NCBI RefSeq assembly: GCF_000331305.1
Contig: NZ_KB217481.1
Coordinates: 1 to 64,000 of the forward strand
Origin: Calothrix sp. PCC 7103
Lineage (GTDB): Bacteria; Cyanobacteriota; Cyanobacteriia; Cyanobacteriales; Nostocaceae
Length of the DNA stretch: 64,000 nt
Reading direction: 5' to 3'
The translations under genes were made by a program, and so were the position numbers. Position 1 is the stretch's first letter, and each line of letters opens with the position of its first letter. This document shows positions 44,689 through 62,229 of the stretch, piece after piece. A model generated the notes under the pieces. The model had not been told where the DNA came from, did no database searches, and saw only the letters and a list, made by a program, of their open reading frames with translations.

Positions 44689-44706
44689 TTAAAGAGGTAT
44701 CAAACT

Positions 44707-45132: not shown

Positions 45133-45363
45133 ATATATCCCATCTCAATATAGCAGTAAATATTTTGTGGAGCGGGCATCCCTGCCCGCTATCTTACATT
45201 TTGTAATAATAACTTGTGTATTTGTCGATTATTGGCTTCGCTCTTACCCGCATAGGGTTGAAAACCCATATGCTAATAGCATAAGCCCTCTGAAAGAGGA
45301 CTAAAAATCATTGTGATTTTAAGTACTATATATTGTCGATGTTGTGGCTTTTACTTAGAGGTG
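45133..45363. other. Gap after cmr5 with a palindrome
   Basis: GCGGGCATCCCTGCCCGC at about 45173-45190 forms a strong hairpin and probably stops or slows transcription from cmr5. The remaining sequence has no convincing ORF; a 60-codon frame at 45122-45304 looks incidental. Confidence 0.45.
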
Positions 45364-45449
45364 TTATTGGATATCCCAGATTCAATTGAAGGGTAATAGC
45401 CATAGGAGGTTACACCATGCATCATAGGCAAAACTATTACGCTATCTAG
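45364..45449 (+). pseudogene. Relic of the cas2 3' end
   Basis: TATTGGATATCCCAGATTC here matches TATTGGATATCTCAAGACG in cas2 at 35913, and the end reads AACTATTACGCTATCTAG against cas2 AACTATTATGTTATCTAG. Over 86-88 bp both copies end at an aligned TAG and continue into homologous leaders. Small indels disrupt the frame. It shows that array 2 arose by copying the cas2-leader-array module. Confidence 0.75.
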
Positions 45450-45665
45450 CTTTGAGGGTCATAAAGTTTATTATTGGCGCCGTAACCACACCACTCGGCA
45501 AATCCCCAAAACCCTATATTTCTCGTTGAGTGGTGTGTATTGCTTGCACAGTAAAGTTTTGAGGCACATGTATGTATCAAATTCTTAGCAAATATATTAT
45601 ACTTTTACAAGTGGTGTGTATTTGTGGCTTGGAACCCTTGCCCAGTAAGCCCTGCTAGATGAACT
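45450..45665 (+). promoter_or_regulatory. Leader of CRISPR array 2
   Basis: It is homologous along its length to the array 1 leader, including TTTCTCGTTGAGTGGTGTG and CAAATATATTATA and the final TAGATGAACTCC before the first repeat. It should still allow transcription and perhaps spacer uptake. Confidence 0.65.
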
Positions 45666-45919
45666 CCCTTCCAATTGGGTCAAATTGGAATCATTGGAAA
45701 CTTTGACGTTTGTACTCAAAATAGATTAAAGCACAAACTGACCCTTCCAATTGGGTCAAATTGGAATCATTGGAAACTATACGAATTGCTGGCCATTTGC
45801 AGCTTTCTGTGCACCCTTCCAATTGGGTCAAATTGGAATCATTGGAAACTCTGGACCGTAGTAGCTGAGTATCAGCCCCTGTCCCCTCCCAATTGGGTCA
45901 AATTGGAATCATTGGAAAC
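45666..45919 (+). CRISPR. CRISPR array 2: four repeats, three spacers
   Basis: The repeat is 36 bp, beginning CCCTTCCAATTGGGTCAAAT and ending ATTGGAAAC, with the stem CCAATT/AATTGG. Repeats start at 45666, 45742, 45814 and 45884 (the last has two small changes). Spacers are 34-40 bp. The repeat differs from that of array 1 at about nine positions but keeps its plan and stem, so the two are diverged sister repeats. No repeats follow 45919. Confidence 0.95.
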
Positions 45920-45938
45920 GTTCAGGGGGGAAGCGACT

Positions 45939-45972
45939 GCTCGTTGCCAAATTTAGTAACGAGCTTTCTCTA
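45939..45972 (+). terminator. Rho-independent terminator after array 2
   Basis: GCTCGTT and AACGAGC form a stem with a 12-base loop, followed by TTTCTCTATTTTTT. It is the counterpart of the terminator after array 1. Confidence 0.7.
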
Positions 45973-46032
45973 TTTTTTAGCAGTTAGATAAGTTTGGAAT
46001 AATTACCAGTATGTAATTAAGGCGCCGTTTCC

Positions 46033-46180
46033 AAAATTTCGTCATTCGCATAATTAGGCGTGACAGTTGGAGAAATCTTTGTAATTATGTAGTTAAGCTT
46101 TGAAAGTTATTGCTTTGGCTTGTGTTTACACTGTGTAAAAAATTGGTGTTTTAGCAAGTAGAATCTAGGTTTTTAGGCGT
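46033..46180 (+). promoter_or_regulatory. Upstream region of the Cmr6-Cmr1 gene, shared with cas10
   Basis: It is homologous to 40954-41105. The homology begins within ten bases of a GGCGCC (46021-46026) at which homology to the array 1 trailer ends, so two duplicated blocks join here. Confidence 0.55.
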
Positions 46181-46294
46181 ATACTTAAGATGCTACCCTA
46201 CGGGAAAAGCTCCGCTTTACGTTCGCGACTCATGACAATAAACGACCTCTAAAATCTATTCATTGTCGAAGGCAAATCTAAAATCTAAAATAAA

Positions 46295-47965
46295 ATGGTT
46301 AATATCAACGAAATACCGCTGATGTTCCAAGCCCAAATTAGCGGACGCGGGCAGGTACAATATATTGGAGACCCAACAAATATAAAACGCTGGGTTAACG
46401 AATGGAAAGAAGGCGCCCTTCATCAAGCTCCTACATGTATCTCACAACCAGATAGTAAAACCTTTCAAAAGAAAAAGTACAAAATTACTTGGCGAATGCT
46501 CTCTAATAGCGGGCAAGATGCAGATATTATTCGTCCTATTATAGCTGCTGGTGGTTTTCCTTATTATCCCGGCGCCAGTATGAAAGGTGCATTTCTACGA
46601 CAATGTACACCAGAACAAAAAGAGCGTTACTGCGGTAGAAAAACATCTGAGAATCAAGTTCTACCGGGTCTTATTCCGTTACGGTTTCACGGTGGATATC
46701 CTAAAGATGATAATTGGAAAGATACCGAATTAATTGATATCATTCATCCCCAGGAAAGCTGGCAAGTTAAAAACAGCGATGATAAACCAAGTGCGAAACT
46801 ACAAATATCATTGTTGGAACCATTACTATTATTTGGTATTTCCTGCACACAAGAATTAGATGAAGCTGAGTGGAATACTATTTGGAGCATTTGGGAAAAA
46901 GCTTTAGAACAAGGAATAGGTTGCCGTACTAGTGCAGGTTACGGTCATCCAGTGAAGCATCCCAATACTCGACTAGTAACAATGTTTTTATCTGGACAAG
47001 GACTAGCATCAAAGTTATTAGACAATGTTGGGGAGTTTCGTCCTAACATGTTCAAAGCAGCATTACGTGGTCATACCCTGCGACTATTTAGCGGTGTTAC
47101 TAGCATAGAAACAGCAGAAGAATTAACACGCGAACTTTGGGGAGGTTTTGATGGCAAGAATTCTATATTAGGTTCTTTGGGAATAGCTTTTACTGCGAAC
47201 TCAGATAATTTAGCAATAGATTTCTACAGATGTAATAATACCCAAATGCCAACATATGAGTTAACCGAAGGGGTATTAAATATTCTTTGCTTACGTCAGC
47301 TTCCTAGTGAAGAAAGAGAGAAATTAAAGAAATTAGCCATTCAACTCGTTAAATTTTCCATGCTGCTTGGAGGTTTTGGAAAATCATGGCGAAGAGTTGA
47401 CCACCGTTTGGTTTACCCAGACTACTTAAAAAATAATCGGAAACCAATGATAGGTTGTCATTGGGAATTTAAAAAAAACTCTCAAAGCTTGTATTTACCT
47501 ATAAATCAGCTTGAGGATATTAGCAAATTCCTTGACACTCTATACAATAAATCAATTCCCAATTGGGTAACATCAAGAGGCAAGAAACTTAATAATAGTA
47601 TAAACGATTGGCGTGAAGTATGGCGCCCAGAGAAAGTAGAAGTTTACGCGCGCATTGCCAAAAACATCACAGATAGCCATGCGATAAAATGGTTTCACGG
47701 TGAGTACAAAAAAGGTTACTCAATAAAAGGCTCAAAGCTAACTGGGAAGGTTGAGAGAAATAACAAAAGCCAAATTGGTAGAATATGGCACCGTATGTAC
47801 CCACGCTATATCATCAAAAATGGTGAAAATAAACTAAAACTAGATGAATATGTAGAAATATTAACAGTTTTTCCAGATGAAGCAGAAGCAACTTTAGACT
47901 TTTTAGATTTTGTTGAATTCGATAGTGACTTTACCAGAGTTTGGAAACAGGGAGAAGAACAATGA
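46295..47965 (+). CDS. Double RAMP protein, Cmr6-Cmr1-like
   Basis: The 556-residue protein contains two RAMP-like parts. The first (about 60-230) has the loop FPYYPGASMKGAFLRQ and the closing GIGCRTSAGYGHP, as in Cmr6. The second begins near 250 with FRPNMFKAALRGHTLRLFSG and LGSLGIAF, which resembles the Cmr1 start where a LRG-x-R motif binds the 3' part of target RNA. No separate cmr1 or cmr6 is present, so a fused subunit that caps the complex is likely. The C-terminal 200 residues are not assigned. It has its own upstream region like that of cas10 and overlaps the next gene by four bases (ATGA). Confidence 0.7.
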   Translation: MVNINEIPLMFQAQISGRGQVQYIGDPTNIKRWVNEWKEGALHQAPTCISQPDSKTFQKKKYKITWRMLSNSGQDADIIRPIIAAGGFPYYPGASMKGAFLRQCTPEQKERYCGRKTSENQVLPGLIPLRFHGGYPKDDNWKDTELIDIIHPQESWQVKNSDDKPSAKLQISLLEPLLLFGISCTQELDEAEWNTIWSIWEKALEQGIGCRTSAGYGHPVKHPNTRLVTMFLSGQGLASKLLDNVGEFRPNMFKAALRGHTLRLFSGVTSIETAEELTRELWGGFDGKNSILGSLGIAFTANSDNLAIDFYRCNNTQMPTYELTEGVLNILCLRQLPSEEREKLKKLAIQLVKFSMLLGGFGKSWRRVDHRLVYPDYLKNNRKPMIGCHWEFKKNSQSLYLPINQLEDISKFLDTLYNKSIPNWVTSRGKKLNNSINDWREVWRPEKVEVYARIAKNITDSHAIKWFHGEYKKGYSIKGSKLTGKVERNNKSQIGRIWHRMYPRYIIKNGENKLKLDEYVEILTVFPDEAEATLDFLDFVEFDSDFTRVWKQGEEQ

Positions 47966-49533
47966 GTCTTTGGATATTAACAACAGGTAACAGCGACATT
48001 CACCTCAAACATGACAAAAATTGGGGCGCCATATATAACAAAGAAGTTAGAAGCAAACTTGAGTGCAATAAATTTGCTAACGTCGTGCAAATTAACCCCG
48101 ATGATAAAAGTCTTGGTTATAAGGCGCCGACAAGGGTATTAGGTCATGTATATGAAAACCAGGGAGAGAAATATGAAACAGATTTAGAATTTCCATTGCT
48201 TAACACCTTCCGCAACTACTTTGAAGAAAATAAAATTAAACTGGATAAAGTAATTATCCTGCTAACCAACCAAGCAAACGTCTTCAACGAGCAATCAAGA
48301 GTTTATAAATATAGTCCTTACTGGCAAGACACCTGCACCCTAGAATCAATACTTAAATGGTATTTTGAGAAATATTTTAACTTAGTACCAAAATTTGAAA
48401 AACTAGAACCTGAAATAAACAAAGGTCTAGACCGCTGGAACGAAACCTTAAACCTTGTGGCAAATACCATCAACAAAATCGAATATAACGTATTAAAACC
48501 CGTTTATATCAGCCATCAAGCAGGTACACCAGCAATTTCATCCGCAGTACAATTTCTAAGCTTAAACAAATTTCAAAAAGTCAAATTTGTCCTGAGCAAT
48601 CAATACTATGATATTACATACAACCAAGAAGCCAAAGCCGAAGAAGTAAGCTATCCTCAGCTATCAAAACCAGAAGGAATCAGTAACAGCGATTCCGAAT
48701 ACTATCGAGGAATGCAAATAGAAAGAGCAAAACAGCTAATAATTGATGGATTTCCCGGCGCTGCACTTAAAATAGTAGAAGGAATAGAAAGAATTCAACC
48801 AGAAGCACTCAACGAACTGCAAAAGATGGTTAACTTCTTTAATCTATATAATAACAGCAACACAGAAGACTCCAAAATAGATAATGCCACACAACGTATA
48901 GCAGAAAGCATAGACCTAGTTAGCTTTTTCTTCGCTCAAAAAAACTACATACAAGGAGTATCCTTACTTTCCGCAGCCCAAGAAACATTTTTAAAAGTAG
49001 CCATTAGCCATTTAACCAGTACCATTACAACTCAATATAATGGAGTTACAGCCTCTAAATTAGTAAATTGGAATAGTAAAGGATTATTTTTAATTAACCA
49101 CTCCAGCTTAAAAAACAATGACAATGAAAATACTAAAAACGGAATACTCAAAATTCTCAAATTTCCAATAGAAAAACATACATCCAAATTCTATTTATAC
49201 ACACATAAAAAAGATGGAACATTAGAATTTACTCGTATAGGCATGTTAAAATGGTTATGTAAACTCAGAGAAGACTTTAAACCTTGGTTAACCCTAGAAG
49301 AAGCAGAGCTACGCAACCAACTCATGCATAACCTACAAGGAATGCAAGATATAGATGTATTAGAATATCTACTAGGGTATCCTGAAGAAAAACCAAGCTC
49401 AAAAACAGTCAAAGACACCTACGAAAAATCTGTCAGGCAACCATTTTTTAATGCTATGAGCAAATTTAAATTACATTACACACCTAACAAACTCAAACAA
49501 AGATTAGAACATATTGCGAATTTACTAGCATAG
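47962..49533 (+). CDS. CARF-HEPN effector (Csm6/Csx1-like)
   Basis: The product is 523 residues from the ATG at 47962, which overlaps the stop of the previous gene. The N-terminal part is a Rossmann-like CARF domain (LWILTTGNSDIHL at the start, VYISHQAGTPAISSAVQFLS near 185-205) that would bind cyclic oligoadenylates made by Cas10. The C-terminal half is helical and carries the HEPN motif R-x4-H as R451-N-Q-L-M-H456 in AELRNQLMH. The domain order and motif predict an RNase triggered on target recognition that degrades RNA broadly. The family is divergent and I cannot name a precise Csx number. Confidence 0.75.
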   Translation: MSLWILTTGNSDIHLKHDKNWGAIYNKEVRSKLECNKFANVVQINPDDKSLGYKAPTRVLGHVYENQGEKYETDLEFPLLNTFRNYFEENKIKLDKVIILLTNQANVFNEQSRVYKYSPYWQDTCTLESILKWYFEKYFNLVPKFEKLEPEINKGLDRWNETLNLVANTINKIEYNVLKPVYISHQAGTPAISSAVQFLSLNKFQKVKFVLSNQYYDITYNQEAKAEEVSYPQLSKPEGISNSDSEYYRGMQIERAKQLIIDGFPGAALKIVEGIERIQPEALNELQKMVNFFNLYNNSNTEDSKIDNATQRIAESIDLVSFFFAQKNYIQGVSLLSAAQETFLKVAISHLTSTITTQYNGVTASKLVNWNSKGLFLINHSSLKNNDNENTKNGILKILKFPIEKHTSKFYLYTHKKDGTLEFTRIGMLKWLCKLREDFKPWLTLEEAELRNQLMHNLQGMQDIDVLEYLLGYPEEKPSSKTVKDTYEKSVRQPFFNAMSKFKLHYTPNKLKQRLEHIANLLA

Positions 49534-49864: not shown

Positions 49865-50554
49865 GTCTCCACTAACCATGTGGAGGCGCCTTAATGAAAA
49901 CTTAAATCTTACCCCACCCTTGATTTTATCTTTCTGTCTCCACTAACCATGTGGAGGCGCCTTAATGAAAACTCAAAGCAATCACTTCGACCCCACAATA
50001 AATCATTGTCTCCACTAACCATGTGGAGGCGCCTTAATGAAAACATCAGGCGCCTGTTTTTCAAAAACGTCTGCTGGCTCATCGCGTCTCCACTAACCAT
50101 GTGGAGGCGCCTTAATGAAAACTTCGTCTCTATCTGGACGATAGGAACCACTTTCTTGTCTCCACTAACCATGTGGAGGCGCCTTAATGAAAACAAGTCT
50201 ATTTAGCTCGTCTAGTCCATTTTTCCAGGTCTCCACTAACCATGTGGAGGCGCCTTAATGAAAACTTTGCTTCTTCAGGAGATAAAAGTCCCACAAAGGG
50301 TCTCCACTAACCATGTGGAGGCGCCTTAATGAAAACCCTAGACATGCGGTCTAGAGAGCGGGCAAACTTGTCTCCACTAACCATGTGGAGGCGCCTTAAT
50401 GAAAACTTACACATTTCTGTGTATTTATCAGTCTCAAAATGTCTCCACTAACCATGTGGAGGCGCCTTAATGAAAACTCTAGACTTGAGTTGTACCACTG
50501 ATAAAACCCTACAACATGTCTCCACTAACCATGTGGAGGCGCCTTAATGAAAAC
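49865..50554 (+). CRISPR. CRISPR array 3: ten repeats, nine spacers
   Basis: The repeat is 37 bp, beginning GTCTCCACTAACCATGTGGA and ending TTAATGAAAAC, with the stem CTCCAC/GTGGAG and a GGCGCC inside. Repeats start at 49865, 49936, 50008, 50086, 50158, 50229, 50300, 50370, 50441 and 50518 and are all identical by eye. Spacers are 33-41 bp. The repeat is unrelated to those of arrays 1 and 2, so a different processing enzyme or another cas set may serve it. Spacer 3 also contains GGCGCC. Confidence 0.97.
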
Positions 50555-50899: not shown

Positions 50900-53800
50900 T
50901 TAAGCGTAATAATCACGCAATGATTTGAGATTTTCACGGATAGTGGCTGTCGTAGGATGATCTGCCCCTAAGCTAAGTTCTGCAATTTCCAAAGCTTTTT
51001 GAAACAGTGGTTCGGCTTCACTGTACCGTCCTTGGTCTCTGTAGAGTCCTGCCAGGTTGTTGTAACTGCTGGCAACAGAGGGATGCTCTTCTCCCAGTAG
51101 CCGTTGAAAAAGTGACAAAGCTTTTTGAAACAGTGGTTCGGCTTCACTGTACCGTCCTTGGTATAAGTAGAGTTGAGCCAGGTTGTTGTAACTGCTGGCA
51201 ACATCGGGATGCTCTTCTCCCAGTAGCCGTTGAAAAAGTGACAAAGCTTTTTGAAACAGTGGTTCGGCTTCACTGTACCGTCCTTGGTCTCTGTAGAGTC
51301 CTGCCAGGTTGTTGTAACTGGTGGCAACATCGGGATGCTCTTCTCCCAGTAGCCGTTGAGAAAGTGACAAAGCTTTTTGAAACAGTGGTTCGGCTTCACT
51401 GTACCGTCCTTGGTATAAGTAGAGTCCTGCCAGGTTGTTGTAACTGCTGGCAACATCGGGATGCTCTTCTCCCAGTAGCCGTTGCCTGAGTGACAAAGCT
51501 TTTTGAAACAGTGGTTCGGCTTCACTGTACCGTCCTTGGTATAAGTAGAGTCCTGCCAGGTTGTTGTAACTGCTGGCAACATCGGGATGCTCTTCTCCCA
51601 GTAGCCGTTGCCTGAGTGACAAAGCTTTTTGAAACAGTGGTTCGGCTTCACTGTACCGTCCTTGGTTATCGTAGAGTCCTGCCAGGTTGTTGTAACTGGT
51701 GGCAACATCGGGATGCTCTTCTCCCAGTAGCCGTTGAGAAAGTGACAAAGCTTTTTGATACAGTGGTTCGGCTTCACTGTACCGTCCTTGGTTAAAGTAG
51801 AGTTGAGCCAGGTTGTTGTAACTGCTGGCAACATCGGGATGCTCTTCTCCCAGTAGCCGTTGCCTGAGTGACAAAGCTTTTTGAAACAGTGGTTCGGCTT
51901 CACTGTACCGTCCTTGGTTAAAGTAGAGTTGAGCCAGGTTGTTGTAACTGCTGGCAACATCGGGATGCTCTTCTCCCAGTAGCCGTTGCCTGAGTGACAA
52001 AGCTTTTTGATACAGTGGTTCGGCTTCACTGTACCGTCCTTGGTCTCTGTAGAGTGCTGCCAGGTTGTTGTAACTGGTGGCAACAGAGGGATGCTCTTCT
52101 CCCAGTAGCCGTTGCCTGAGTGACAAAGCTTTTTGATACAGTGGTTCGGCTTCACTGTACCGTCCTTGGTCTCTGTAGAGTGCTGCCAGGTTGTTGTAAC
52201 TGGTGGCAACATCCGGATGCTCTTCTCCCAGTAGCCGTTGAGAAAGTGACAAAGCTTTTTGATACAGTGGTTCGGCTTCACTGTACCGTCCTTGGTTATC
52301 GTAGAGTCCTGCCAGGTTGTTGTAACTGGTGGCAACATCCGGATGCTCTTCTCCCAGTAGCCGTTGCCTGAGTGACAAAGCTTTTTGAAACAGTGGTTCG
52401 GCTTCACTGTACCGTCCTTGGTTATCGTAGAGTGCTGCCAGGTTGTTGTAACTGGTGGCAACATCGGGATGCTCTTCTCCCAGTAGCCGTTGCCTGAGTG
52501 ACAAAGCTTTTTGAAACAGTGGTTCGGCTTCACTGTACCGTCCACGTTCGTTCAAGTAGTAGCCTGTCCTAGAAAATAGTAAAGCGGCTTGTTCCAACTC
52601 AAATTGATACTGCTCCACCCAATAAATTGCAGCTATCGCATGGGGTAAAAGTCGCTCACAGTCTTGCCAATTTGTATATTCTCCAGCATCCGGGAAGACT
52701 TGTGTGACCGCACAAACAGTCCTTTCTGCCCAAAGACGGCAGCTATCCGAATCCATCTCGGCTTTTAAGACGAGCTGCACTAGGCGGTGAATATCAAAGG
52801 TTTTATGAGTTGAGTTGCGGTAAATCAACGAAAACCGTCCCGCTTCTGCAATGATTTTCACAAAATCTAGGGGTTTGTCTGCTAAAAAGCTGAGAAAATC
52901 TCCCAATTGTGCCGCACCTTGAGTAAAAATTTCTTCGGGAATTGCATCAGCTGCTAAAAAGGCAGAAACACGAATCAAATCGGCGGCGGTTGGGTTGCGT
53001 TCTAATACCTTTTTAAAGGCTAGGGAAAAGGTGATGCTTGCGCTCTCGTGGTCAATTGCCAGTTCGCCTCGTTCTGCCAGTAGTCTCGCGCCTTCTTCCC
53101 GGTAAAATTGCAAATACTCCGCCAAACTGGAGGGAATTTCTTCAATAAATGCTCCTGCTTGATCTAATGCTAAAGGTAAACCGTCCATTTCCCGCGAGAT
53201 TGTCTGAGCCAAATTGCGTTCGGATTCACTCACCCCATCTAGCCCCGCTTGCTCTGCAATCAGCTTGGCACGCCGTAGCAACAACAGCGCCCCATCTTTA
53301 GCTAGCATTTTTTTGACCTCAATTCGCTGATATATCCCCGTAGCAAAGGCGCGGGTAGTCAACAATACCTGACCTTGATGCGCCCCAGGTAGAAACGGGA
53401 CTAGCATCGGAATTTCGTCCGCATTATCTAAAATCAACAACCAGCCGTGATGTGTTGCTAACCACTGCTTCACTGCGGTAATTATTAAGCTTTCATCCTT
53501 TTCCTGGCTAACGGGTAAATTAAGTAACTGGGCAACCTCCACAAAACCCGACACCAATTCTAGTTTGTCTGGCGCCCTCACCCACAGTATCGCCTCATAC
53601 TCGTTGCCATAGCGATAGGCAAACTCGATAGCCGTCTGGGTTTTGCCAATCCCACCTAACCCGCTTAATGCTGCTGACTTGCGTGCTAATAAGGCATTGC
53701 GTATTTCTTGCAATACAGTTTCACGCCCTGTAAAAAATGGGTTGCGCGGGTATGGTATGTTACACACTTTCTGTGGAGCCGTCTTAATTCTCTTCGCAAT

Positions 53801-54046
53801 AGCCTGTAATTCCGAATTTCCAGGGTTTGTCTTATACGCTGCACAGATTAAGTCTTTAATCCATCCCCCTGCTTCTGCTGTTTGTATTATTGTGAAGATA
53901 ATATCTTGTAAATTACCTGATGAAGCAATTGCTTCAAGGTTTTTATCTAATTCAAACGACAGCATTTGCTCTAACGATGCTTTAGTCGGGAAAGCACTCA
54001 CTAAAGCTTCTCGTATTTCCTTACGCTGCCGTCCAGATAAATTCAT
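50900..54046 (-). CDS. EAD1-NB-ARC-TPR STAND protein
   Basis: The 1048-residue protein starts with an effector-associated domain of EAD1 type (about 3-85, LSGRQRKEIREALVSAFPT, then NLQDIIFTIIQTAEAGGWI), a death-like adaptor that recruits an effector with a matching domain. The NB-ARC NTPase follows: FFTGRE at 104-109, Walker A GLGGIGKTQ at 129-137 and Walker B LLILDNAD at 203-210. The rest from about 500 holds twelve near-identical 42-residue TPR units (RYSEAEPLFQKALSLRQRLL) and a diverged thirteenth. Variation is confined to a few positions. This is the plan of bacterial NLR-like sensors. No effector with EAD1 is next to it, so a remote partner is needed. Confidence 0.88.
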   Translation of the reverse strand: MNLSGRQRKEIREALVSAFPTKASLEQMLSFELDKNLEAIASSGNLQDIIFTIIQTAEAGGWIKDLICAAYKTNPGNSELQAIAKRIKTAPQKVCNIPYPRNPFFTGRETVLQEIRNALLARKSAALSGLGGIGKTQTAIEFAYRYGNEYEAILWVRAPDKLELVSGFVEVAQLLNLPVSQEKDESLIITAVKQWLATHHGWLLILDNADEIPMLVPFLPGAHQGQVLLTTRAFATGIYQRIEVKKMLAKDGALLLLRRAKLIAEQAGLDGVSESERNLAQTISREMDGLPLALDQAGAFIEEIPSSLAEYLQFYREEGARLLAERGELAIDHESASITFSLAFKKVLERNPTAADLIRVSAFLAADAIPEEIFTQGAAQLGDFLSFLADKPLDFVKIIAEAGRFSLIYRNSTHKTFDIHRLVQLVLKAEMDSDSCRLWAERTVCAVTQVFPDAGEYTNWQDCERLLPHAIAAIYWVEQYQFELEQAALLFSRTGYYLNERGRYSEAEPLFQKALSLRQRLLGEEHPDVATSYNNLAALYDNQGRYSEAEPLFQKALSLRQRLLGEEHPDVATSYNNLAGLYDNQGRYSEAEPLYQKALSLSQRLLGEEHPDVATSYNNLAALYRDQGRYSEAEPLYQKALSLRQRLLGEEHPSVATSYNNLAALYRDQGRYSEAEPLYQKALSLRQRLLGEEHPDVASSYNNLAQLYFNQGRYSEAEPLFQKALSLRQRLLGEEHPDVASSYNNLAQLYFNQGRYSEAEPLYQKALSLSQRLLGEEHPDVATSYNNLAGLYDNQGRYSEAEPLFQKALSLRQRLLGEEHPDVASSYNNLAGLYLYQGRYSEAEPLFQKALSLRQRLLGEEHPDVASSYNNLAGLYLYQGRYSEAEPLFQKALSLSQRLLGEEHPDVATSYNNLAGLYRDQGRYSEAEPLFQKALSLFQRLLGEEHPDVASSYNNLAQLYLYQGRYSEAEPLFQKALSLFQRLLGEEHPSVASSYNNLAGLYRDQGRYSEAEPLFQKALEIAELSLGADHPTTATIRENLKSLRDYYA
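50960..52540 (-). repeat. Tandem 126-bp coding repeats
   Basis: Twelve units of 126 bp, each one TPR, are over 90 percent identical in DNA. A second frame stays open for over 500 codons across them only because the unit repeats. Such uniformity means recent expansion or gene conversion. Confidence 0.85.
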
Positions 54047-54052
54047 GTTTTA

Positions 54053-55011
54053 AAACCAACGACAATTTTTCAGCTAACTGTGAACTTAATAGAAGTCGGA
54101 TAGGTCGGCTACCCAGTTCCCCCATTGAACCGTATGTACGAGTTTCCAAGTTCAATTATCAGGCAAATCATAAAGCTATGCCCCAGAATGGATTTGTTGA
54201 CGGGCGTAGATATAGCGTAGCTGATATCAGGGGCAAGTAGTATAAACACTCAGTTTGTAGTATACAGTAGCATAAATAAAAGCTTATTATGCACGTTCAA
54301 TATTGTTTTAACTTTAGCTGATTGAAAGTGATAATGGTTTAAAAAGAGGGAACAGGGAACGGGGAACAGGGAACAGGGAAAGACTGCAAGAGAAAGGGGG
54401 ATTTTGACCCCAACTATAGCTTACAACGTAATAGTTGATGGGGAATTAAACCCACTGATTTTGCCTTGAAAACAAACGTTCAACAGTTCGTTCCTCACTG
54501 TTGCCCGTTCCCTGTTCCCTGTTCCCTTCTTCGTTAAATAATTCTAAGTATATCAATAGCTAAAAAATATACACAACAATGTTTATAGATTTACAGTTGC
54601 CCTAAAACTATTAATTACCTATCAAATAGTCAAAATTTAGGGAAAGCTTTTTATTTGTTTTGGTTACAAATCGCTACAATCGTTGGTGTAGAAGAAATAG
54701 AAGCGATGAAGGGAAGATACTATAGCCGATTGGGGAAGAACCCATCCACACGCAATTATAGTTTATAAGTTAAGGGTTTAAAGCTTTCGCATGAAACGAG
54801 CAGGCGCCTCAAGAGCGGTATTATGAGTTAAATAATTGACATCTATGAAGAGCATCTACTGTTTTATAACAGGTGTTTTATAGTTATAGAAGCGCAAAGC
54901 TATACGAAATAAAGCTTTTAAGCCATTTGGTGTAAAATGTGAGTGAAATTTAAAATTACATGTCAAAATAATTGACCGCCTGACGGCGGAAAAAATAAAA
55001 AGAGCAAAGGG
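54053..55011. other. Repeat-rich non-coding stretch
   Basis: No gene is supported. GGGAACAGGGAACGGGGAAC-type text at 54347-54385 and its complement (CCCGTTCCCTGTTCCC) at 54503-54530 can form a long hairpin around an AT-rich loop. The dispersed repeat copy 2 is at 54762-54810. The 3' end (54900-55011) lies behind the FGE gene. Confidence 0.5.
54762..54810. repeat. Dispersed repeat, copy 2 (with 25021-25069)
   Basis: It reads AGTTTATAAGTTAAGGGTTT and ends in GCAGGCGCCTC. Unlike copy 1 it carries no inserted element, so it serves as an empty-site reference for the 312-bp transposon. Confidence 0.6.
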
Positions 55012-55878
55012 CTACTTAAGAATCCTGCCGAACGCGCAGACAACTCGAAAACCAATAATGTTGAGGATGAAGCGGCGCCCCACCCCCATGCTGTTGTTGC
55101 GAGACGCACAACGGCAGTATCCAGGAAATTCATACCAAGAACCGCCCCGCAGCACGGCATAACCCTTTTTTAGATAAAGATTATCATCGTCACTATCTAA
55201 CCAAGCACTACCATCAGTTGGCGCCCCTTCATAGTTATTGTGCCAATCATCAAGACACCATTCCCAAAGGTTCCCATGCATGTCACACAGTCCAAAGGCG
55301 TTAGCTACGTCAAAACTGTCCACGGGTGTTGTTGACTCACGGTAAATACCATTTGAGCCTCGACCATAGGAACCTGACAATTTAGATTCTTTGTTATCTG
55401 TACCTCGATAATTAGCTAAGTCTGTTGTAATTGTCTCACCAAAATGAAATGGTGTAGTTGTTCCTGCACGACAGGCATATTCCCATTCTGCTTCGCTAGG
55501 GAGGCGGTAGGGTCTTTTGGTATATTCAGAAAGACGCTGGCAAAATTCAATTGTATCGTACCAGGAAACTGTCTCTACTGGAAGGTTATCACCTTTAAAT
55601 TCAGAAGGGTTAAGATTAAGTTCGTGGTTTACTTGAGGAAGAGAGGCTACTGCTTGCCATTGTGCTTGGGTGACAGGATACTTACTCATAAAGAAAGTTG
55701 AAACTTTGACTTGGTGCTGGGGGCGTTCTGATTTACTACTGCCTTCTTCCGTTTCTGGCGCCCCCATTATAAAGCTACCGTCAGGAATCAACATCATCTC
55801 TAGTTCAACTTTATTACCCAAGACTTCAACAAAATATTTTGCGGCGCCTTGACTATATCTAATAAGTGTTCTTGTCAT
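55012..55878 (-). CDS. FGE-sulfatase/C-type-lectin-fold protein with a DGR-type variable C-terminus
   Basis: The 288-residue single-domain protein has the formylglycine-generating-enzyme-like fold: FIMGAPETEEG, HQVKVSTFFMSKYPVTQAQW, LPSEAEWEYACRAG and MHGNLWEWCLDDW. The catalytic Cys pair of true FGE enzymes is not evident, so a binding role is more likely. The end, RGGSWYEFPGYCRCASRNNS to IGFRVVCAFG, holds a variable stretch that differs from its sister at 55982 only where a template would have adenines. It is the last gene of the minus-strand operon, 103 bp after the vWA/FGE fusion. It probably serves as a diversified ligand-binding receptor of that system. Confidence 0.85.
   Translation of the reverse strand: MTRTLIRYSQGAAKYFVEVLGNKVELEMMLIPDGSFIMGAPETEEGSSKSERPQHQVKVSTFFMSKYPVTQAQWQAVASLPQVNHELNLNPSEFKGDNLPVETVSWYDTIEFCQRLSEYTKRPYRLPSEAEWEYACRAGTTTPFHFGETITTDLANYRGTDNKESKLSGSYGRGSNGIYRESTTPVDSFDVANAFGLCDMHGNLWEWCLDDWHNNYEGAPTDGSAWLDSDDDNLYLKKGYAVLRGGSWYEFPGYCRCASRNNSMGVGRRFILNIIGFRVVCAFGRILK
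55051..55136 (-). other. DGR-type variable region 1
   Basis: Codons in the 3' end of the FGE gene are mostly NNC/NNT where the sister gene has other NNC/NNT, with a constant TGCCGTTGTGCGTCTCGC (55099-55116) between two variable blocks. Examples of codon pairs with the sister: AAC/TAC, AAC/ATC, AGC/GAC, CGC/GAC, TTC/GAC. All can derive from AAC in a template by changes at adenines. A conserved TTTTCG-GTTGTCTGCGCG follows, as an IMH-like end. Confidence 0.75.
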
Positions 55879-55981
55879 AAATTGGTATCTATATTTTTAC
55901 AAAAATTTTAGATCGCTCCGCTACGCTAATAAAGAAAAAAGAAAAGAAGTGCAGAGAGAAAAATAACTAAAGTATAAAGGG

Positions 55982-58609
55982 CTACTCAATAATCCTCCCG
56001 AACGCGCAGACAACCCGAAAACCAACATTGTCGCTGATGTCGTCGTCGCGCACCACCCTATTGTCGATGTAGCGAGACGCACAACGGCAGGCTTCAGGAT
56101 GGTCGTACCACGAACCACCCCGCAGTATGGCAACACCTTTTTTTTGATAAAGATTATTATTTTTACTATCTAGCCAAGCACTCCCATCTGTGGGCGCCCC
56201 TTCATAATTCTCGTGCCAATCATCAAGACACCATTCCCAAACGTTTCCGTGCATATCATATAGTCCAAAGGCATTGGCTACCTTAAAACTGCCCACGGGT
56301 GTTGTGGAAGCACGGTATTTTCCTTTTGAACCAGTACTGTAAGTGTAGTTAGCATTATAATTTGCTAGTTCTGATGTAATTGTCTCGCCAAAATGAAATG
56401 GTGTAGTTGTTCCTGCACGACAGGCATATTCCCATTCTGCTTCGCTGGGGAGGCGGTAGGGTTTGTTGGTGTATTTAGAGAGACGCGCGCAAAATTCAAC
56501 CGCATCGTACCAGGAAACTGTGTCTACCGGAAGGTTATCACCTTTGAATCTAGAAGAAGGGTTAGGATTAAGTTCCCGGTTTACTTGAGGGAGAGAAGCT
56601 ACTGCTTGCCATTGTGCTTGGGTTACAGGATACTTGCCCATGCGAAAGGGACTAATAGTCACTGTGTGCTGAGGACTTTCAGTTTTGGAGTACCCTATTT
56701 CATCTTCTAAAGAACCCATCAGGAAATGACCTCCTGGGATTTCCATTAACTCTAATTCGATTCTTCCTTCTAAAACTTCTATAATGCTTGTTGCCTGTTT
56801 TTGTTGGCGGTTAATTACCCAACGATTACCAAATCCTAAAAGTTGGCTTTTCCGTTCTAAGGTCGCGATATAAAATTCAGATGTGCGGGTTTCTTCTATT
56901 TCAACGATGGCTACTTTAAAAGTGCAGGTTTTTAGTTCTGGAATTTGCTCATCTTCGGTGTTAGATTCTGAGTCTGGCAGAGGCGAGACTAATATGTTAC
57001 CAGCAACTTGTTCAGCGAAATCTGCATACTCGCCACCAAGATTTTTTAATACTTCTATTGTTACCGTAGCAAAGGGCAATATTTGCTCATGTTGTTCCTG
57101 ACTGAAGTCTTGATATTTTAATAAAAGCGCGGTAAAACTTTTGATTGATAAACCTAAGTTATCTGCTATGTAACTCGACACTACATCTAAGACGTTTTCA
57201 GTTTCTCCTAAGCGAGTTGCCTGGTTAAGTAGTTTTCTAACTTCTGGGACAAAATCATATTTTGGATTTTCACCGTTATCTAAAGTATTAGTTCGCTGAA
57301 TCATTCCGCTTAAAAATACTTCTGCCACATGTACAGGTGTCGATTTATTCTTTAATAATTTCTCTTGAATTAAATTTATTACTGGTAAGCTAACTGGGGC
57401 TGCTGCCATTAATCCGGCTAACCGTTGCGCTGTAAGTGAAGCCGTAGCTAAAAAACGGTCTACTAAGTTTTCTGGGGATGGTTCCTGGGATTTGACTGTT
57501 GCTGATTTTTGAACTTGTTCGGCTACAAAATCCAACTCGAAGACAAATCCTGGCGTGTACGTATTTCCACGACCTGCTATAACTTTCGCCCAATTTTTTA
57601 GTGAGAAAGCTTCTAGGGTAACTACAGGCAACTTTAAAACTCGCTCCCCTTTTAGTTCTTCCCACAGTGATGGCAATACTAAATTAGAATTAGGCACTCC
57701 AGGATTAAATGCACTTAGTTGCAGTTTGTAGCCCAAGCCTAGCTCTGTACTTTGCCATAGCCTTTCCGGAAAAAGCTGTACAATTGCTGTTAGTGCTTTA
57801 TTTGACCATTCCTGCAACCATTGGTGAATTTTTGCTTGTTGCCAAATATTAGATACACAGTCGCTAACAAGTAAAATTAAAGAGCGTCTATTGCTAGAAA
57901 TTAACTCTTTGTAACTATGTTGGTAGTGACTTTTTTGACTGCCTTGTCTACGTCTGGTTAATTGTAAATGCCCATTATCTGTACTCGATAAGTTCCAAGC
58001 CCTAACGGCACCAAATGCACCATGACTTTGCAACAGCTTTTGTAATTCATCAATAGTTTCTGTCCAAATAAATAAAGCGCGAGATTCTTCAACTACTAGC
58101 TCAAGGCTCAACCAGCGTTCTGGTTCTGGTTTGGTGACTGGCAACCAAATATCTCGCTCGGCAATACGGGTTACAGTGGCTTCAGCATCAAGTATAGTTT
58201 TAATTGCAGAAGGAACTTTCCGCATCAAAGGTCGCAAAGCTCTACTGATTGACAGTTTATTTTGTAAAGCAGCGGCGCCTGGAGTTTGAAAAGGTAAAGC
58301 GTTGGCGCCTGTCTTTTTCTCAGGTTCTTCTTGGGTTATTGAGTCTTGGGAATAAATATTGATGGTAGAATCTGCTTCTGGGGTAGATTGTGCTTTTATT
58401 ATTTTTCCATCTTCGATGCCTTGGCTTGTTTCTTGTTGTGGTAATGGTTGTTGATTTTCTGTTGTAGTCTCCCCAACTCCCATTTGCAGGGCTAACCAAA
58501 TAGTATCAGCTATATCCTCGTCACTTAATTCTAAACATTCCATTAATCCACTGCGCTCTAAGTGAGCGAGTAGACGTTCAACTGCGTTATGGCGAGATAC
58601 TTTACTCAT
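55982..58609 (-). CDS. SAV_2336/vWA-like protein fused to an FGE/C-type-lectin domain
   Basis: The 875-residue protein has three parts. A short N-terminal helical domain (about 1-48, AVERLLAHLERSGLMECLEL) looks like an adaptor. The middle (about 135-380) resembles the SAV_2336-type vWA-like domain: RWLSLELVVEESRALFIW, RRSLILLVSDCVSNIWQQ and a PERLW-TELG stretch. The C-terminus (about 600-875) is an FGE-like domain (FLMGSLEDE, LPSEAEWEYACRAG, MHGNVWEWCLDDW, RGGSWYDHP) with a variable end. It overlaps the MoxR gene by eight bases. Known ternary systems pair MoxR, vWA and VMAP proteins; here the vWA partner carries its own diversified binding domain. Confidence 0.75.
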   Translation of the reverse strand: MSKVSRHNAVERLLAHLERSGLMECLELSDEDIADTIWLALQMGVGETTTENQQPLPQQETSQGIEDGKIIKAQSTPEADSTINIYSQDSITQEEPEKKTGANALPFQTPGAAALQNKLSISRALRPLMRKVPSAIKTILDAEATVTRIAERDIWLPVTKPEPERWLSLELVVEESRALFIWTETIDELQKLLQSHGAFGAVRAWNLSSTDNGHLQLTRRRQGSQKSHYQHSYKELISSNRRSLILLVSDCVSNIWQQAKIHQWLQEWSNKALTAIVQLFPERLWQSTELGLGYKLQLSAFNPGVPNSNLVLPSLWEELKGERVLKLPVVTLEAFSLKNWAKVIAGRGNTYTPGFVFELDFVAEQVQKSATVKSQEPSPENLVDRFLATASLTAQRLAGLMAAAPVSLPVINLIQEKLLKNKSTPVHVAEVFLSGMIQRTNTLDNGENPKYDFVPEVRKLLNQATRLGETENVLDVVSSYIADNLGLSIKSFTALLLKYQDFSQEQHEQILPFATVTIEVLKNLGGEYADFAEQVAGNILVSPLPDSESNTEDEQIPELKTCTFKVAIVEIEETRTSEFYIATLERKSQLLGFGNRWVINRQQKQATSIIEVLEGRIELELMEIPGGHFLMGSLEDEIGYSKTESPQHTVTISPFRMGKYPVTQAQWQAVASLPQVNRELNPNPSSRFKGDNLPVDTVSWYDAVEFCARLSKYTNKPYRLPSEAEWEYACRAGTTTPFHFGETITSELANYNANYTYSTGSKGKYRASTTPVGSFKVANAFGLYDMHGNVWEWCLDDWHENYEGAPTDGSAWLDSKNNNLYQKKGVAILRGGSWYDHPEACRCASRYIDNRVVRDDDISDNVGFRVVCAFGRIIE
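56021..56110 (-). other. DGR-type variable region 2
   Basis: The same constant TGCCGTTGTGCGTCTCGC (56072-56089) and conserved end are present, with different codons at the variable sites (TAC, ATC, GAC, GAC, GAC, AGC, GAC) and one codon more than in region 1. Flanking codons outside these blocks are nearly unchanged between the two genes. Confidence 0.75.
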
Positions 58610-59645
58610 CTTCTTCGACCTGACCTAAATCTTGAAGAAGCAGCTTAATTAGCGCATCTTTAGTTGATATACGCCCCTTTGTTACCATAAACAAGGCATT
58701 GAGTAGTTGGTCATTTGCTAAAGTTTCTGTTTTCCTTTTTTCAATAAAATCGTCAACTAAAGTATCAAGCGCTTGGTCAGTCAACCTATCAGATTTTTCA
58801 GGGTCTTTTAATTCCTCGCCTAAATGAGCTGTAATAATTTTTATTAAATGCTCTTTCTCTGGCTCTCTCATTGTTAAACGTAAACATCGCCTTAAAAATG
58901 GTGGGGGGAAGTCTCGTTCGCCATTGCTAGTTAAGATTACAAACGGAAAAGTCGTACAGATTACTTGCCCTTCAATTATGTCAGCACTATTATCCGCTGT
59001 ATATGCTGTACGAACTGTAGCGGTTTTAACTTCTTTCTTAATTCTAACAAGCTCAGAAATTTCAAAGCGCCCTTCTTCAAAAATAGTTAAAAGGTCGTTA
59101 GGTAAATCTATATCACTTTTGTCAATTTCATCAATTAAGAGAATACGAGGCTTTTTCGATGGCAGTAAGGCTGTTCCTAATGGTCCAAGTGTAATAAATT
59201 TCTCAATACTTTTTAGTTGTAGTTGCAGTTGTTCTTCTCTTTCCTGAGAAGATAATTGTGAAGAATTATCCTGCTGCCTTACTTCTTGCAACCGTTGTAA
59301 TCGAGCAATTGCATCATAATTATAAAGCCCATCTTTAAGAGTAGTACGGGTAGTAATAGGCCAATACAATACTTCTCCTAGGTTTAATTCTCTAGCTACC
59401 GCATAAGCAAGAGATGATTTTCCTGTTCCCGGTTTTCCCGTCACTAATAGAGGGCGCCGCAAATACAAAGCGGCATTAACCATTTTGATTTCTTCTTCCT
59501 TGGCTTGAAATGTTTCTCCTCTTCGTTGGCGCCGGGTTTCTCCTGGTTTGCTATCTTTATCGAAGGGGCGCCAGTTGGGAGGAGGTGGTAGTTTCCAGTC
59601 ATCACGAGGTTCATTGTTTCCTTTAAAAATCTGCCAGTCATTCAT
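58602..59645 (-). CDS. MoxR-type AAA+ ATPase
   Basis: The 347-residue protein has Walker A GKPGTGKSS (70-78), Walker B ILLIDEIDKSD (168-178), sensor 1 VILTSNGERDFPPPFLRRC and the arginine-finger region, all of the MoxR group of AAA+ proteins. These work with vWA proteins to remodel or load partners. The Gln/Ser-rich insert at 120-145 is unusual. It sits between the VMAP-like gene (9 bp upstream) and the vWA/FGE gene (overlapping), which fixes it as the NTPase of the ternary system. Confidence 0.88.
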   Translation of the reverse strand: MNDWQIFKGNNEPRDDWKLPPPPNWRPFDKDSKPGETRRQRRGETFQAKEEEIKMVNAALYLRRPLLVTGKPGTGKSSLAYAVARELNLGEVLYWPITTRTTLKDGLYNYDAIARLQRLQEVRQQDNSSQLSSQEREEQLQLQLKSIEKFITLGPLGTALLPSKKPRILLIDEIDKSDIDLPNDLLTIFEEGRFEISELVRIKKEVKTATVRTAYTADNSADIIEGQVICTTFPFVILTSNGERDFPPPFLRRCLRLTMREPEKEHLIKIITAHLGEELKDPEKSDRLTDQALDTLVDDFIEKRKTETLANDQLLNALFMVTKGRISTKDALIKLLLQDLGQVEEDE

Positions 59646-59654
59646 AATTATTTT

Positions 59655-61010
59655 TTATAGGTAATTTTGCGTTACACGTTGTTCTGGTGGTAGTACATTT
59701 GGGTCATCCCAAAGCAAGCATAAATGGCGGCCAACGTGATTTTCTGGGGAGTCGCAATCAAAAGCACTAAGTCTTTCCTGTTTTACTTTATCTGGTACTT
59801 GTTCTAAATAGCAATCCTTCAGTATTTTATCTAATGCTGATTGATTTATAATTTGGGGAAGTTGTTTACGAACCCATAAGGCTAGGGGAACAGATGCTTG
59901 CCAAAGAAGTGTACCCGGTTCTTTATTTTGAAAAACAGTCGTTATTTTTACCGCCAATACATCTTTGTTTAATTTAAATTGCTTAAATAAGCTTCTAGGA
60001 TTATCACTAGAAGCCAAAATAAAAATTTTTTCGGCGGGTTCAACAAATTTATTCCTTAAAATATTTGCTTTTTCTCGCCACTTTATAACTGACGGGTCAT
60101 TACCTCTTAATCTTTCTGAACAGCGAAGTAAAACTTCATACTCATCGCCAATTGTTGTGCTATAATCATTTTCATTTTCTTGCCAATTCTCCCAATAATC
60201 AACAGCATAATTCATGAGTTTAGCTGGTAAGAAAACATGAATTTGTTTTATGGATTTTTGATATTTACAACAAATTTGAGCAATCATTTTTTTCAATAAT
60301 TCAGGAACGTTACTTAAAGTTTCATCTGTGACTATTTCAGTTTGTTGATTGATGGTAAGCTGTTCAAAATTAGATGAGAAAGATTGTCCATACTGAGTTA
60401 TATTTTTGTTTAGCCAAGATTCAACTATATATTTTCCTCTCCGCTCACTAATTGCTACCATAAGCCCAAGAAAATATTGTTGTTGTTTTTCATTTAGCTC
60501 TGACTTTAAGTGCTGAATTAATTGCTGACAGTTATTAATATTTTGCTCTGCCCATTCGTTTAACCTTCCATTTAGATTTACAGACAATGATTGCTCTAAT
60601 AATAAATGAATAACAAATTTTTCCATATAACTACATGCATCTTTGTCATGAGGTAATTGTAATCCTTTAATTAACTCCATTGCATCATTAGGATTTATTT
60701 GTTTATTAATTAATCTATTAGGTAAAGATAAATTATAAGCATTTAAAATATTACTTTTATATAAATCAAAATCAGTATTTAGAATAATTATTAAATCTTG
60801 AATGTTTGAAATTTTAATTTCTTGTAAATCATTCTCTACTTTTTTCATTTCCTCCAATGTATTATCTAGTTTAAATTGCAGTCGATTTTTTACGTCTGCA
60901 TCACTTGCTGCTTTATAGTCGCGCTCAAGACCTTCATAATCTTTGTTATAGTCTGCTAATCTTTTTTCTAAACTCTCCTTTCTCAGCCTATTTGTGAAAT
61001 TACTCTCCAT
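59655..61010 (-). CDS. VMAP-like protein (vWA-MoxR-associated) with N-terminal coiled-coil adaptor
   Basis: The 451-residue protein begins with a coiled coil (residues 5-66, LEKRLADYNKDYEGLERDYK) that is nearly identical to the C-terminal tail of the hydrolase encoded just upstream. A helical middle (70-190) precedes a C-terminal domain with IKQIHVFLPAKLMNYAVDYW (about 255-275), KIFILASSDNPRSLF and LPLALW-like PLALWVRKQ, and the end NHVGRHLCLLWDDPN. That pattern resembles the VMAP-C domain of ternary conflict systems, thought to link the sensor module to an effector. The 11-bp overlap with the hydrolase gene means translational coupling. The exact subfamily is uncertain. Confidence 0.65.
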   Translation of the reverse strand: MESNFTNRLRKESLEKRLADYNKDYEGLERDYKAASDADVKNRLQFKLDNTLEEMKKVENDLQEIKISNIQDLIIILNTDFDLYKSNILNAYNLSLPNRLINKQINPNDAMELIKGLQLPHDKDACSYMEKFVIHLLLEQSLSVNLNGRLNEWAEQNINNCQQLIQHLKSELNEKQQQYFLGLMVAISERRGKYIVESWLNKNITQYGQSFSSNFEQLTINQQTEIVTDETLSNVPELLKKMIAQICCKYQKSIKQIHVFLPAKLMNYAVDYWENWQENENDYSTTIGDEYEVLLRCSERLRGNDPSVIKWREKANILRNKFVEPAEKIFILASSDNPRSLFKQFKLNKDVLAVKITTVFQNKEPGTLLWQASVPLALWVRKQLPQIINQSALDKILKDCYLEQVPDKVKQERLSAFDCDSPENHVGRHLCLLWDDPNVLPPEQRVTQNYL

Positions 61011-62229
61011 GATTGATTTGATTTAACTCCTTTTCTATTTTTTTCATTTCCTCCAATATACTATCTAATTTAAATTGCAGTCGATTTTTTACGTCTGCAT
61101 CACCTGCTGCTCTAAGGTCACGTTCAAGACCTTCATAATCTTTTTCATAGTCTGCTAATCTTTTTTCTAAATTATTCTTTTTTAAACGCAGCGCTGTACT
61201 AGGCGCTTTTTGAGGATTAGGTTGATTTATTATATTTCCGCCTATTTGATTAGCGTTGACTATATCCGCATTAATTATTCCGCCACCAAATTGGGCGCCT
61301 TGCAAGTAAAAATTGGATATACTTGGAGGCGCCTGTGATGACTTGTCTTCCTTCTCACTCACTGATTGATCTTCGGATGATTCTAAAGAAGATTGCAAAT
61401 AATCTTTAATAAAATTTTTAACGCCTAAATATACTTTGTTATCTCCTGGCTTTGGTTTAGCAATGGTGTCGTGGTCTGCATCGATTGCAATTGGTTTTAC
61501 GTCCACAATACCAGGATTAGCACTGCTTGCGTTTACGACTAAAACCCCGCTAGTCGGTCTTGTTTCATAGTAAACTTTGGTTGCAATACCAAACTCTCCC
61601 ACGTGTTGACGATACCATTCATCAAGTTCCCGTAACTGGGGAGCATGAGCCTTAAGTTCTTCAACACTAACCGTACTCAAAAATCCTGTAAAAGATTTTA
61701 CCCATTGTGCAAGGTCAGACCCTAGGTGGGGAGTTGATAAAAATACAATTCCTTTGGTAGAGTCAATTACCGCCTTTTTTCTTTTATCTCGCGGGAAATT
61801 CTCCGCAGTACTTAACATTTTTTTGACAAGCAATCCGCCCATGCTATGAGTCACGAAAATAATCGGGCGCCTGCCGAAGTCAAAATTTTCTAAATCATCA
61901 AGTAAGTTACTAGCTTGGTCAAAAAGTGGCATAGCGGAACCATTAGCTCTTAAGCGTGCTGCACTGTAGCCAAAAGTCCAAATTCCAGCTTCTACTCCGG
62001 AATCTTTTAAATCCTTCCCTAGCCAATTTAACCAGCAGTTATTTTTCTGGTAGTCTTTATCGTTGGGATTTTGCCAGTGCCAGGTATTCCAAGCATGACC
62101 TGCCAAACCATGCACAAAAACTACATCCCCCAAACGATTTGGATTATCGCATCCTAATACTGAAATCAATCCCAGCATATCACTATCACCATTTGGTCGT
62201 GGGTTGGGGGTAGGTTTGTTGCCGAACAT
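61000..62229 (-). CDS. Alpha/beta-hydrolase effector with C-terminal adaptor coiled coil
   Basis: The 409-residue protein has an alpha/beta-hydrolase fold of PGAP1/DUF676-like type: oxyanion-side VVFVHGLAGHAWNTW (36-50), nucleophile Ser129 in VTHSMGGLL, and a His candidate in DADHDTIAK near 260. A linker with NFYLQGAQFGGG then leads to a coiled coil (about 345-405, LEKRLADYEKDYEGLERDLR). The coiled coil matches the start of the VMAP-like protein. Lipase-type effectors that attack membranes are a known option in EAD-coupled systems. First gene of the operon; its start is the ATG at 62229. Confidence 0.8.
   Translation of the reverse strand: MFGNKPTPNPRPNGDSDMLGLISVLGCDNPNRLGDVVFVHGLAGHAWNTWHWQNPNDKDYQKNNCWLNWLGKDLKDSGVEAGIWTFGYSAARLRANGSAMPLFDQASNLLDDLENFDFGRRPIIFVTHSMGGLLVKKMLSTAENFPRDKRKKAVIDSTKGIVFLSTPHLGSDLAQWVKSFTGFLSTVSVEELKAHAPQLRELDEWYRQHVGEFGIATKVYYETRPTSGVLVVNASSANPGIVDVKPIAIDADHDTIAKPKPGDNKVYLGVKNFIKDYLQSSLESSEDQSVSEKEDKSSQAPPSISNFYLQGAQFGGGIINADIVNANQIGGNIINQPNPQKAPSTALRLKKNNLEKRLADYEKDYEGLERDLRAAGDADVKNRLQFKLDSILEEMKKIEKELNQINHGE

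Follow-up and report, generated by a model that had tools for sequence, protein, structure and literature searches.

Diversity-generating retroelements (DGRs) rewrite lectin-fold binding surfaces by adenine-directed mutagenic homing. The window considered here, the whole stretch of 64,000 nucleotides (nt) of Calothrix sp. PCC 7103 that was analysed, comprises positions 1-64000 of contig C10 (321,658 bases) within a genome of 11.58 Mb in 12 contigs, and it contains a conflict operon that ends in two genes with FGE domains, termed here genes A and B. The variable regions (VRs) at the 3′ ends of these genes carry the pattern of change expected from a DGR, and it is probable that A and B are a pair of remote targets that was once written by such an element and is now retired, with fixed surfaces and a template that has been lost or has changed. 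The closest template repeat (TR) in the genome is TR1, which belongs to DGR1, one of three DGRs of this genome. The two genes and their variable regions are as follows.

55012..55878, minus strand: gene A, a stand-alone FGE (C-type-lectin fold) protein of 288 amino acids (PF03781, 180.4 bits; cut-off 23.3).
55982..58609, minus strand: gene B, a SAV_2336 N-terminal region with a C-terminal FGE domain, 875 amino acids (NF041121, 451.6 bits, cut-off 200; PF03781, 194.3 bits).
55026..55152, minus strand: variable region of gene A, 127 nt, homologous to TR1, with mismatches to it at 17/33 adenines and 14/94 other positions.
55996..56125, minus strand: variable region of gene B, 130 nt, with a 3-nt insertion relative to TR1 and mismatches to it at 14/33 adenines and 12/94 other positions.

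Both genes lie on the minus strand and end in a PF03781 FGE domain, and they contain the constant blocks that an earlier note on this DNA had named. An alignment of their 3′ ends spans 127 columns, 28 of which differ, and B carries an additional 3-base insertion. This divergence is concentrated far beyond chance at the adenines of TR1, where 20/33 positions differ compared with 8/94 elsewhere (Fisher P = 6e-9). At codon positions 1 and 2, differences are found at 20/30 TR1 adenines and 1/55 other sites (P = 4e-11), and at third codon positions the corresponding counts are 0/3 and 7/39; seven of the eight substitutions at TR1 non-adenines are in third positions. Mismatches between each gene and TR1 are also enriched at its adenines (P = 8e-5 for A and 7e-4 for B). 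The earlier note held that every difference between A and B could be traced to template adenines, and this applies to 20 of the 28; the other 8, together with the 3-base indel, lie elsewhere.

A search of the genome with the RVT_1 profile identified 17 places with matches to reverse transcriptases (RTs), three of which have the DGR motif [IV]GNLTSQ together with YVDD (C10:223218, C7:8400376, and C7:5993724) and an adenine-rich template repeat nearby. DGR1 is on the same contig as the window, ~167 kb from genes A and B. Its RT at C10:223218 has IGNLTSQ and YVDD, its avd gene is matched by NF033474 (138.3 bits, cut-off 80), and the match to TR1 lies at C10:222872-222989. The cis targets of DGR1 are two FGE genes (C10:221682-222602 and C10:224524-226092) in which 13/33 and 15/33 adenines of TR1 are changed, and 0/94 non-adenine positions. 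The components for which the earlier note had proposed a whole-genome check, namely an adenine-rich template matching the constant blocks, a DGR RT, and avd, are all present on this one contig. The window itself, as the note had also stated, is without a DGR template or DGR RT as far as tested: its only RVT_1 match (33223-33699) has IPQG, which is not the DGR motif. When the end of gene A was used to search the genome at the DNA level, five places were matched, namely the two window genes, which were the only matches inside the window, the two cis targets, and TR1.

At the non-adenine positions, the skeleton of the template, the agreement between the window pair and TR1 breaks down. Eight of the departures counted above (14/94 in A, 12/94 in B) are common to both genes, and the GC-rich stretch at the 3′ end of the window regions is also unlike TR1. 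TR1 is nevertheless the nearest template in the genome, the counts being 26/88 (A) and 22/90 (B) for TR2, and 20/82 and 14/82 for TR3. Homing copies the template across the whole region, so mismatches between the variable sites indicate that there has been no recent full-length rewriting from TR1, despite the presence of an RT, avd, and two cis targets. Distance alone does not account for the mismatch. An FGE gene 3.2 Mb from TR2 (C7:5170229-5170912, locus L034) has 15/29 adenine and 2/99 other changes relative to it. The two non-adenine changes are confined to the 3′ edge of the match, the core agreeing fully with TR2 outside the adenines, and this gene is probably a live remote target. Another FGE gene, C12:805287, is of the drifted kind, with 15/29 adenine and 15/101 non-adenine changes relative to TR2. 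Genes A and B resemble DGR targets in having a variable region at the 3′ end of a gene for a C-type-lectin fold, and differ in lacking non-adenine identity to the template of a DGR in the genome. Accordingly, the suggestion that they are targets of a DGR elsewhere in the genome holds in that DGR1 exists, while present targeting is unsupported. Many changes at non-adenine positions, which the earlier note had named as evidence against its own view, are found in part: they occur in the window pair, compared with none in the cis targets and none in the core of the remote TR2 target.

Templates that might fit A and B were also sought in other genomes, using patterns in 217 genomes of the family and 388 of the order, and one DNA search in 198 relatives. 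A comparison with 22 full-length templates, including the 3 of this genome, yielded none that fits the pair; the fewest misses at non-adenine positions were 12/93 (A) and 10/95 (B). These 22 comprise 12 + 2 + 8 templates (the eight being L125, L115, L082, L093, L087, L072, L167, and L169); the hybrid-like L151 was kept, L168 was not counted as its counts are identical to those of L153, and the partial or interrupted L154, L158, and L178 and the target-template hybrids L149/L166 were left out. A partial template, L117, has non-adenine mismatches of 10/59 (A) and 5/59 (B). The pattern of the window-type 3′ end was located at 4 places in 4 of the 217 family genomes (2 template copies and 2 target genes), that of the stretch behind TR1 at 14 places in 13 of them, and a Cys-type block pattern at 7 places in 6 of the 388 genomes of the order. 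L179, a template with the Cys block that adjoins a DGR RT, was ruled out by its non-adenine misses (15/87 for A and 14/89 for B). Template skeletons vary among the family genomes compared, and the template of a genome of the same genus (G006, locus L157) is nearly TR1, the cis targets differing from it at 2/93 non-adenine sites. Two loci, L149 and L151 (genomes G201 and G254), are hybrids: one is a target gene reading into template-type downstream sequence, and in the other a template is preceded by target-type sequence, a pattern that recombination between templates and targets would produce.

Synonymous sites allow a relative dating of these events, and related pairs from other genomes can be included. 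The best named matches of gene B are in Richelia sp. UBA3308 (68%) and Mastigocoleus testarum (65%), where a MoxR-like open reading frame (ORF), a B-type gene, and a second FGE gene occur in the same order as in the window (loci L070 and L071, the B-type gene of the latter being read as two ORFs). In the window pair, the variable region has diverged less than the gene body at synonymous sites (4/29 vs 58/136; P = 0.003) and more at nonsynonymous sites (23/91 vs 79/497; P = 0.035). The cis pair of DGR1 has a variable region free of synonymous differences (0/29 vs 76/136; P = 1.6e-9), with nonsynonymous divergence that is not raised (21/91 vs 98/497; P = 0.48). For the Richelia and Mastigocoleus pairs, synonymous divergence is 12/28 vs 40/134 (P = 0.19) and 11.3/27 vs 66/134 (P = 0.53), and nonsynonymous divergence is raised in the variable region of both (23/92 vs 54/502, P = 0.0006; 34/93 vs 66/493, P = 6e-7). 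We take these values as a series in which the cis pair would have been rewritten recently, the window pair would derive from a common template and be drifting, and the Richelia and Mastigocoleus pairs would be older or come from different templates. The test of the window pair, with its few differences, supports this order without proving it. Gene conversion alone was rejected as an explanation, because nonsynonymous divergence rises while synonymous divergence falls in the variable region.

We propose that mutagenic retrohoming, in which cDNA of a template repeat acquires random changes at template adenines, would have replaced the 3′ end (last ~40 codons) of A and B. Both genes would have undergone such rewriting one or more times since the duplication that gave rise to them, with a common template as the source; this template may since have been lost, have changed, or lie outside the assembly. 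Their variable regions would now be subject to ordinary drift, and probably form fixed recognition surfaces.

Sequence elements behind the stop codons are relevant to whether the pair could still be reached by a DGR, and two are present in the window.

54974..54989, minus strand: GC hairpin ~22 nt behind the stop codon of gene A, pattern CCGCCNNNNGGCGGTC, a candidate homing-target hairpin or terminator.
55911..55926, minus strand: GCGTAGCGGAGCGATC element behind gene B, a second type seen behind the VR genes of relatives, with one copy in the genome.

The genome has three copies of CCGCCNNNNGGCGGTC, one behind gene A and one behind each of the DGR1 cis targets, and behind these two targets the hairpin loop occurs in both orientations, GTTA and TAAC. 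More generally, CCCTTT within 12 nt of the stop codon is found in 64/121 VR genes compared with 1/521 control ORF ends; it is followed (also in L023, L109, L117, and other VR loci) by a pyrimidine-rich stretch, in some genes by a GC hairpin or GCGnAGC, and often by a T-run. The same comparison gives 14/121 and 1/521 for TAGCGnAGCGGA, 33/121 and 10/521 for GCGnAGC, and, for the core CGCC-N3/4-GGCG, 22 hits in the 121 VR genes compared with 5 in the 521 controls. The pair adjoining this core, which is outside the search pattern, is complementary in 22/22 cases (C-G 15, T-A 7), and the next pair outward in 13/22. A looser hairpin search matched 35/134 VR genes, 48/540 control ORF ends, and 61/6,700 shuffles, so hairpins are fairly common behind other ORFs too and the specific core discriminates better. 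These hairpin matches stem from related loci and are not independent. It is possible that the downstream hairpin is a terminator, or that the flank is merely of common descent.

Several observations weigh against the view that A and B are retired. The proposed shared template is seen nowhere, as no template compared has the window skeleton, and the assembly has masked or unknown stretches (e.g. 100 N in L027). The synonymous test of the window pair rests on 4 differences in 29 sites, with 28 gene pairs compared. Furthermore, both genes retain a downstream element typical of VR genes, with the hairpin of gene A common in this genome only to the DGR1 cis targets, and they could thus still be addressable. 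These retained elements would fit live remote targets, served in trans by TR1 and one of the RTs of the genome, or by a template within a masked or unassembled stretch. The location of TR1 on the same contig is compatible with such service, as are the two other DGR RTs, which are stop-free over the stretch read, and the distant TR2 target that matches its template in the core. We judge continued targeting to be unlikely, since full-length homing from TR1 would erase the non-adenine mismatches, many of which lie between variable sites, and the GC-rich 3′ stretch is unlike TR1. No additional similar copy was found in the assembly. The state of the DGR1 RT also counts against it: the gene (C10:223011-224069; L023:5512-6570) has an in-frame stop at codon 10, which makes its activity doubtful. 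Translation might begin at a start behind this stop. In both cis targets every non-adenine core position still agrees with TR1, which could mean that the stop arose recently or that a different RT is used. Stop-free copies of this RT are present in relatives. The 39 RT rows listed, some of them partial and some repeating one gene, include 6 for the DGR1 RT with its stop, 1 other with a stop (L072), and 32 without.

A change in the template is another way to explain the skeleton mismatch. TR1 or its ancestor could have written A and B before its skeleton was altered, for instance through recombination with a target gene, with the cis targets following. The varied skeletons among family genomes and the hybrids at L149 and L151 are consistent with this, and B is slightly nearer to the foreign L151 than to TR1 (10/95 and 12/94), as A is nearer to the G006 template (12/93 and 14/94). 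The near identity of that template with TR1 places the skeleton before the split from G006, and we regard such a change as improbable. Less likely again, and in our view barely tenable, is an origin that involves no DGR, in which the tails came to differ through positive selection or gene conversion acting on a lectin-like surface. Such surfaces can evolve fast, and 8 of the 28 differences are off the TR1 adenines, but the confinement of changes at codon positions 1 and 2 to template adenines is not expected from selection or conversion alone, nor is a stretch in which nonsynonymous divergence goes up and synonymous divergence goes down, and the genome does contain genuine templates of this design. 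A pair written by a DGR and since retired is thus the explanation that we favour.

The remaining genes of the operon are as follows.

58602..59645, minus strand: AAA ATPase of MoxR type (AAA_5, 37.7 bits, above cut-off; bpMoxR, the sole MoxR-specific Pfam model listed, 24.7 bits, slightly below the cut-off of 27).
59655..61010, minus strand: VMAP protein with EAD9, VMAP-M1, and VMAP-C (PF20028, 96.6; PF19963, 63.6; PF19962, 50.5 bits; all above cut-off).
61000..62229, minus strand: alpha/beta hydrolase with C-terminal EAD9, predicted effector (EAD9, 60.6 and DUF676, 23.0 bits, above cut-off; PADLOC DUF626_VIII, 72.7 bits).

The cluster runs from 62229 to 55012 in the order alpha/beta hydrolase-EAD9, VMAP protein, MoxR-type AAA ATPase, gene B, and gene A, and neighbours overlap or have at most 103 bases between them. 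It includes a VMAP protein with VMAP-C and a MoxR-type AAA ATPase (AAA_5 over its cut-off). With the layout published for them (PMC7159879), the operon belongs to the VMAP ternary conflict systems, and Pfam domain matches confirm the earlier placing of the two proteins within a ternary system. PADLOC gave no match for gene A, gene B, or the VMAP protein. The SAV_2336 region of gene B is possibly the vWA component: its model is of low confidence (pLDDT 64), and the Foldseek list is headed by a NorQD complex chain (E 3e-3) followed by several vWA domains, none at E <= 0.001. The model of gene A (64 sequences, pLDDT 82) has PvdO as its best PDB match by Foldseek, and the third best is TvpA (2y3c), a DGR target of Treponema (E 1.7e-15). 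In the gene A alignment, highly variable residues (248-250, 252, 253, 260-263, 266, 269, and 271-273) alternate with conserved ones (244, 245, 251, 254, 255, and 275). As putative fixed recognition modules, A and B may signal via MoxR and VMAP to the hydrolase.

Genomes with related sequences are those of filamentous cyanobacteria, and the same-genus genome G006 has a stretch in common with Calothrix sp. HK-06 (loci L041 and L109). Among plasmid records, 30 gave a match and 0 spanned 80% of the A-B stretch. A search at E <= 1e-20 detected two DGR RTs in the Richelia genome and none in that of Mastigocoleus. Neither of the Richelia templates fits the FGE pair of that genome, the first giving 16/87 and 20/91 and the second 19/85 and 18/78.

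Other features were observed in the window and at the DGR loci. Downstream of the operon, at 50900-54046, an EAD1 protein that contains many near-identical TPR repeats in succession is possibly an associated effector. ORFs at 45675-45956 and 49909-50206 consist of short repeated units that resemble CRISPR arrays, and the genes at 43825-49533 may encode type III CRISPR proteins. The RT fragment at 33223-33699, with its IPQG motif, lies within a 243-amino-acid open frame and is, we assume, like those of group II introns. Between ternary-type genes and a DGR1 target gene there is an ORF of 430 amino acids (L023:8694-9986), which we take to resemble IscB. The cis target gene of DGR2 (L024; C7:8402617, locus L032) has an in-frame TAA inside its FGE match.

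This genome offers an internal comparison, with three DGRs, cis targets that match, a distant target that matches, and a non-matching tandem pair in a conflict operon. Non-adenine and synonymous-site tests distinguish live from retired targets here, and a plain count of TR-VR identity does not. If the retired status of A and B is correct, it would provide a route by which a hypervariable bacterial receptor becomes fixed. A more general version, on which we would not insist, is that the operon lineage writes and then locks its receptors, diversifying the FGE pair and then parting it from its template, so that the surface is fixed and the downstream element stays. Richelia, with two DGRs and unfit templates, and Mastigocoleus, with no DGR RT found, would then be two more instances in which memory is fixed, as a recurring step, in a bacterial immune receptor.

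Published work already covers FGE domains with a DGR link in the VMAP systems of cyanobacteria, as well as remote targets and variable regions without a match; this A/B pair was not found in the open-access papers examined, supplements aside. Kaur et al. 2020 (PMC7159879) report that ~80% of cyanobacterial and gammaproteobacterial VMAP systems are DGR-linked, and that in some the TR copies lie ‘elsewhere in the genome’. The operon shares with their systems a VMAP protein, a MoxR ATPase, and a component fused to FGS/FGE whose C-terminus is hypervariable, and differs in that the TR elsewhere mismatches the operon genes at non-adenine positions. Dore et al. 2024 (PMC10907252) also describe ternary systems with DGR-diversified lectin domains, as well as degenerate DGR loci; the role of DGR targets as putative antigen sensors in such systems is there a proposal and not yet an experiment. 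Trans targets are recognized in that work by a perfect non-adenine match, and some VRs lack a perfect match in the genome (their DGR 7). Their main case is in a different phylum, whereas the unmatched pair here is in a cyanobacterial operon within a genome that has three DGRs. Dispersed FGE/CLec paralogs with TR-VR homology, as found here, are known from Vallota-Eastman et al. 2020 (PMC7517822), including all3226 of Nostoc PCC 7120, which has remnant homology and no adjacent RT. Remote targets are counted there by >50% identity, while live and drifted targets are told apart here by the non-adenine and synonymous tests. In the BPP-1 phage, a hairpin behind the VR is required for efficient homing (PMC3240598), and the element behind gene A is similar in being a GC hairpin downstream of the VR with a stem sequence that is free to vary and a small loop. 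The stems here are shorter (5-6 bp, compared with 7-10 bp in BPP-1), mostly lie ~45-56 nt downstream of the stop codon (gene A, 22 nt), and, unlike in BPP-1, are followed by a T-run, so that they could be terminators.

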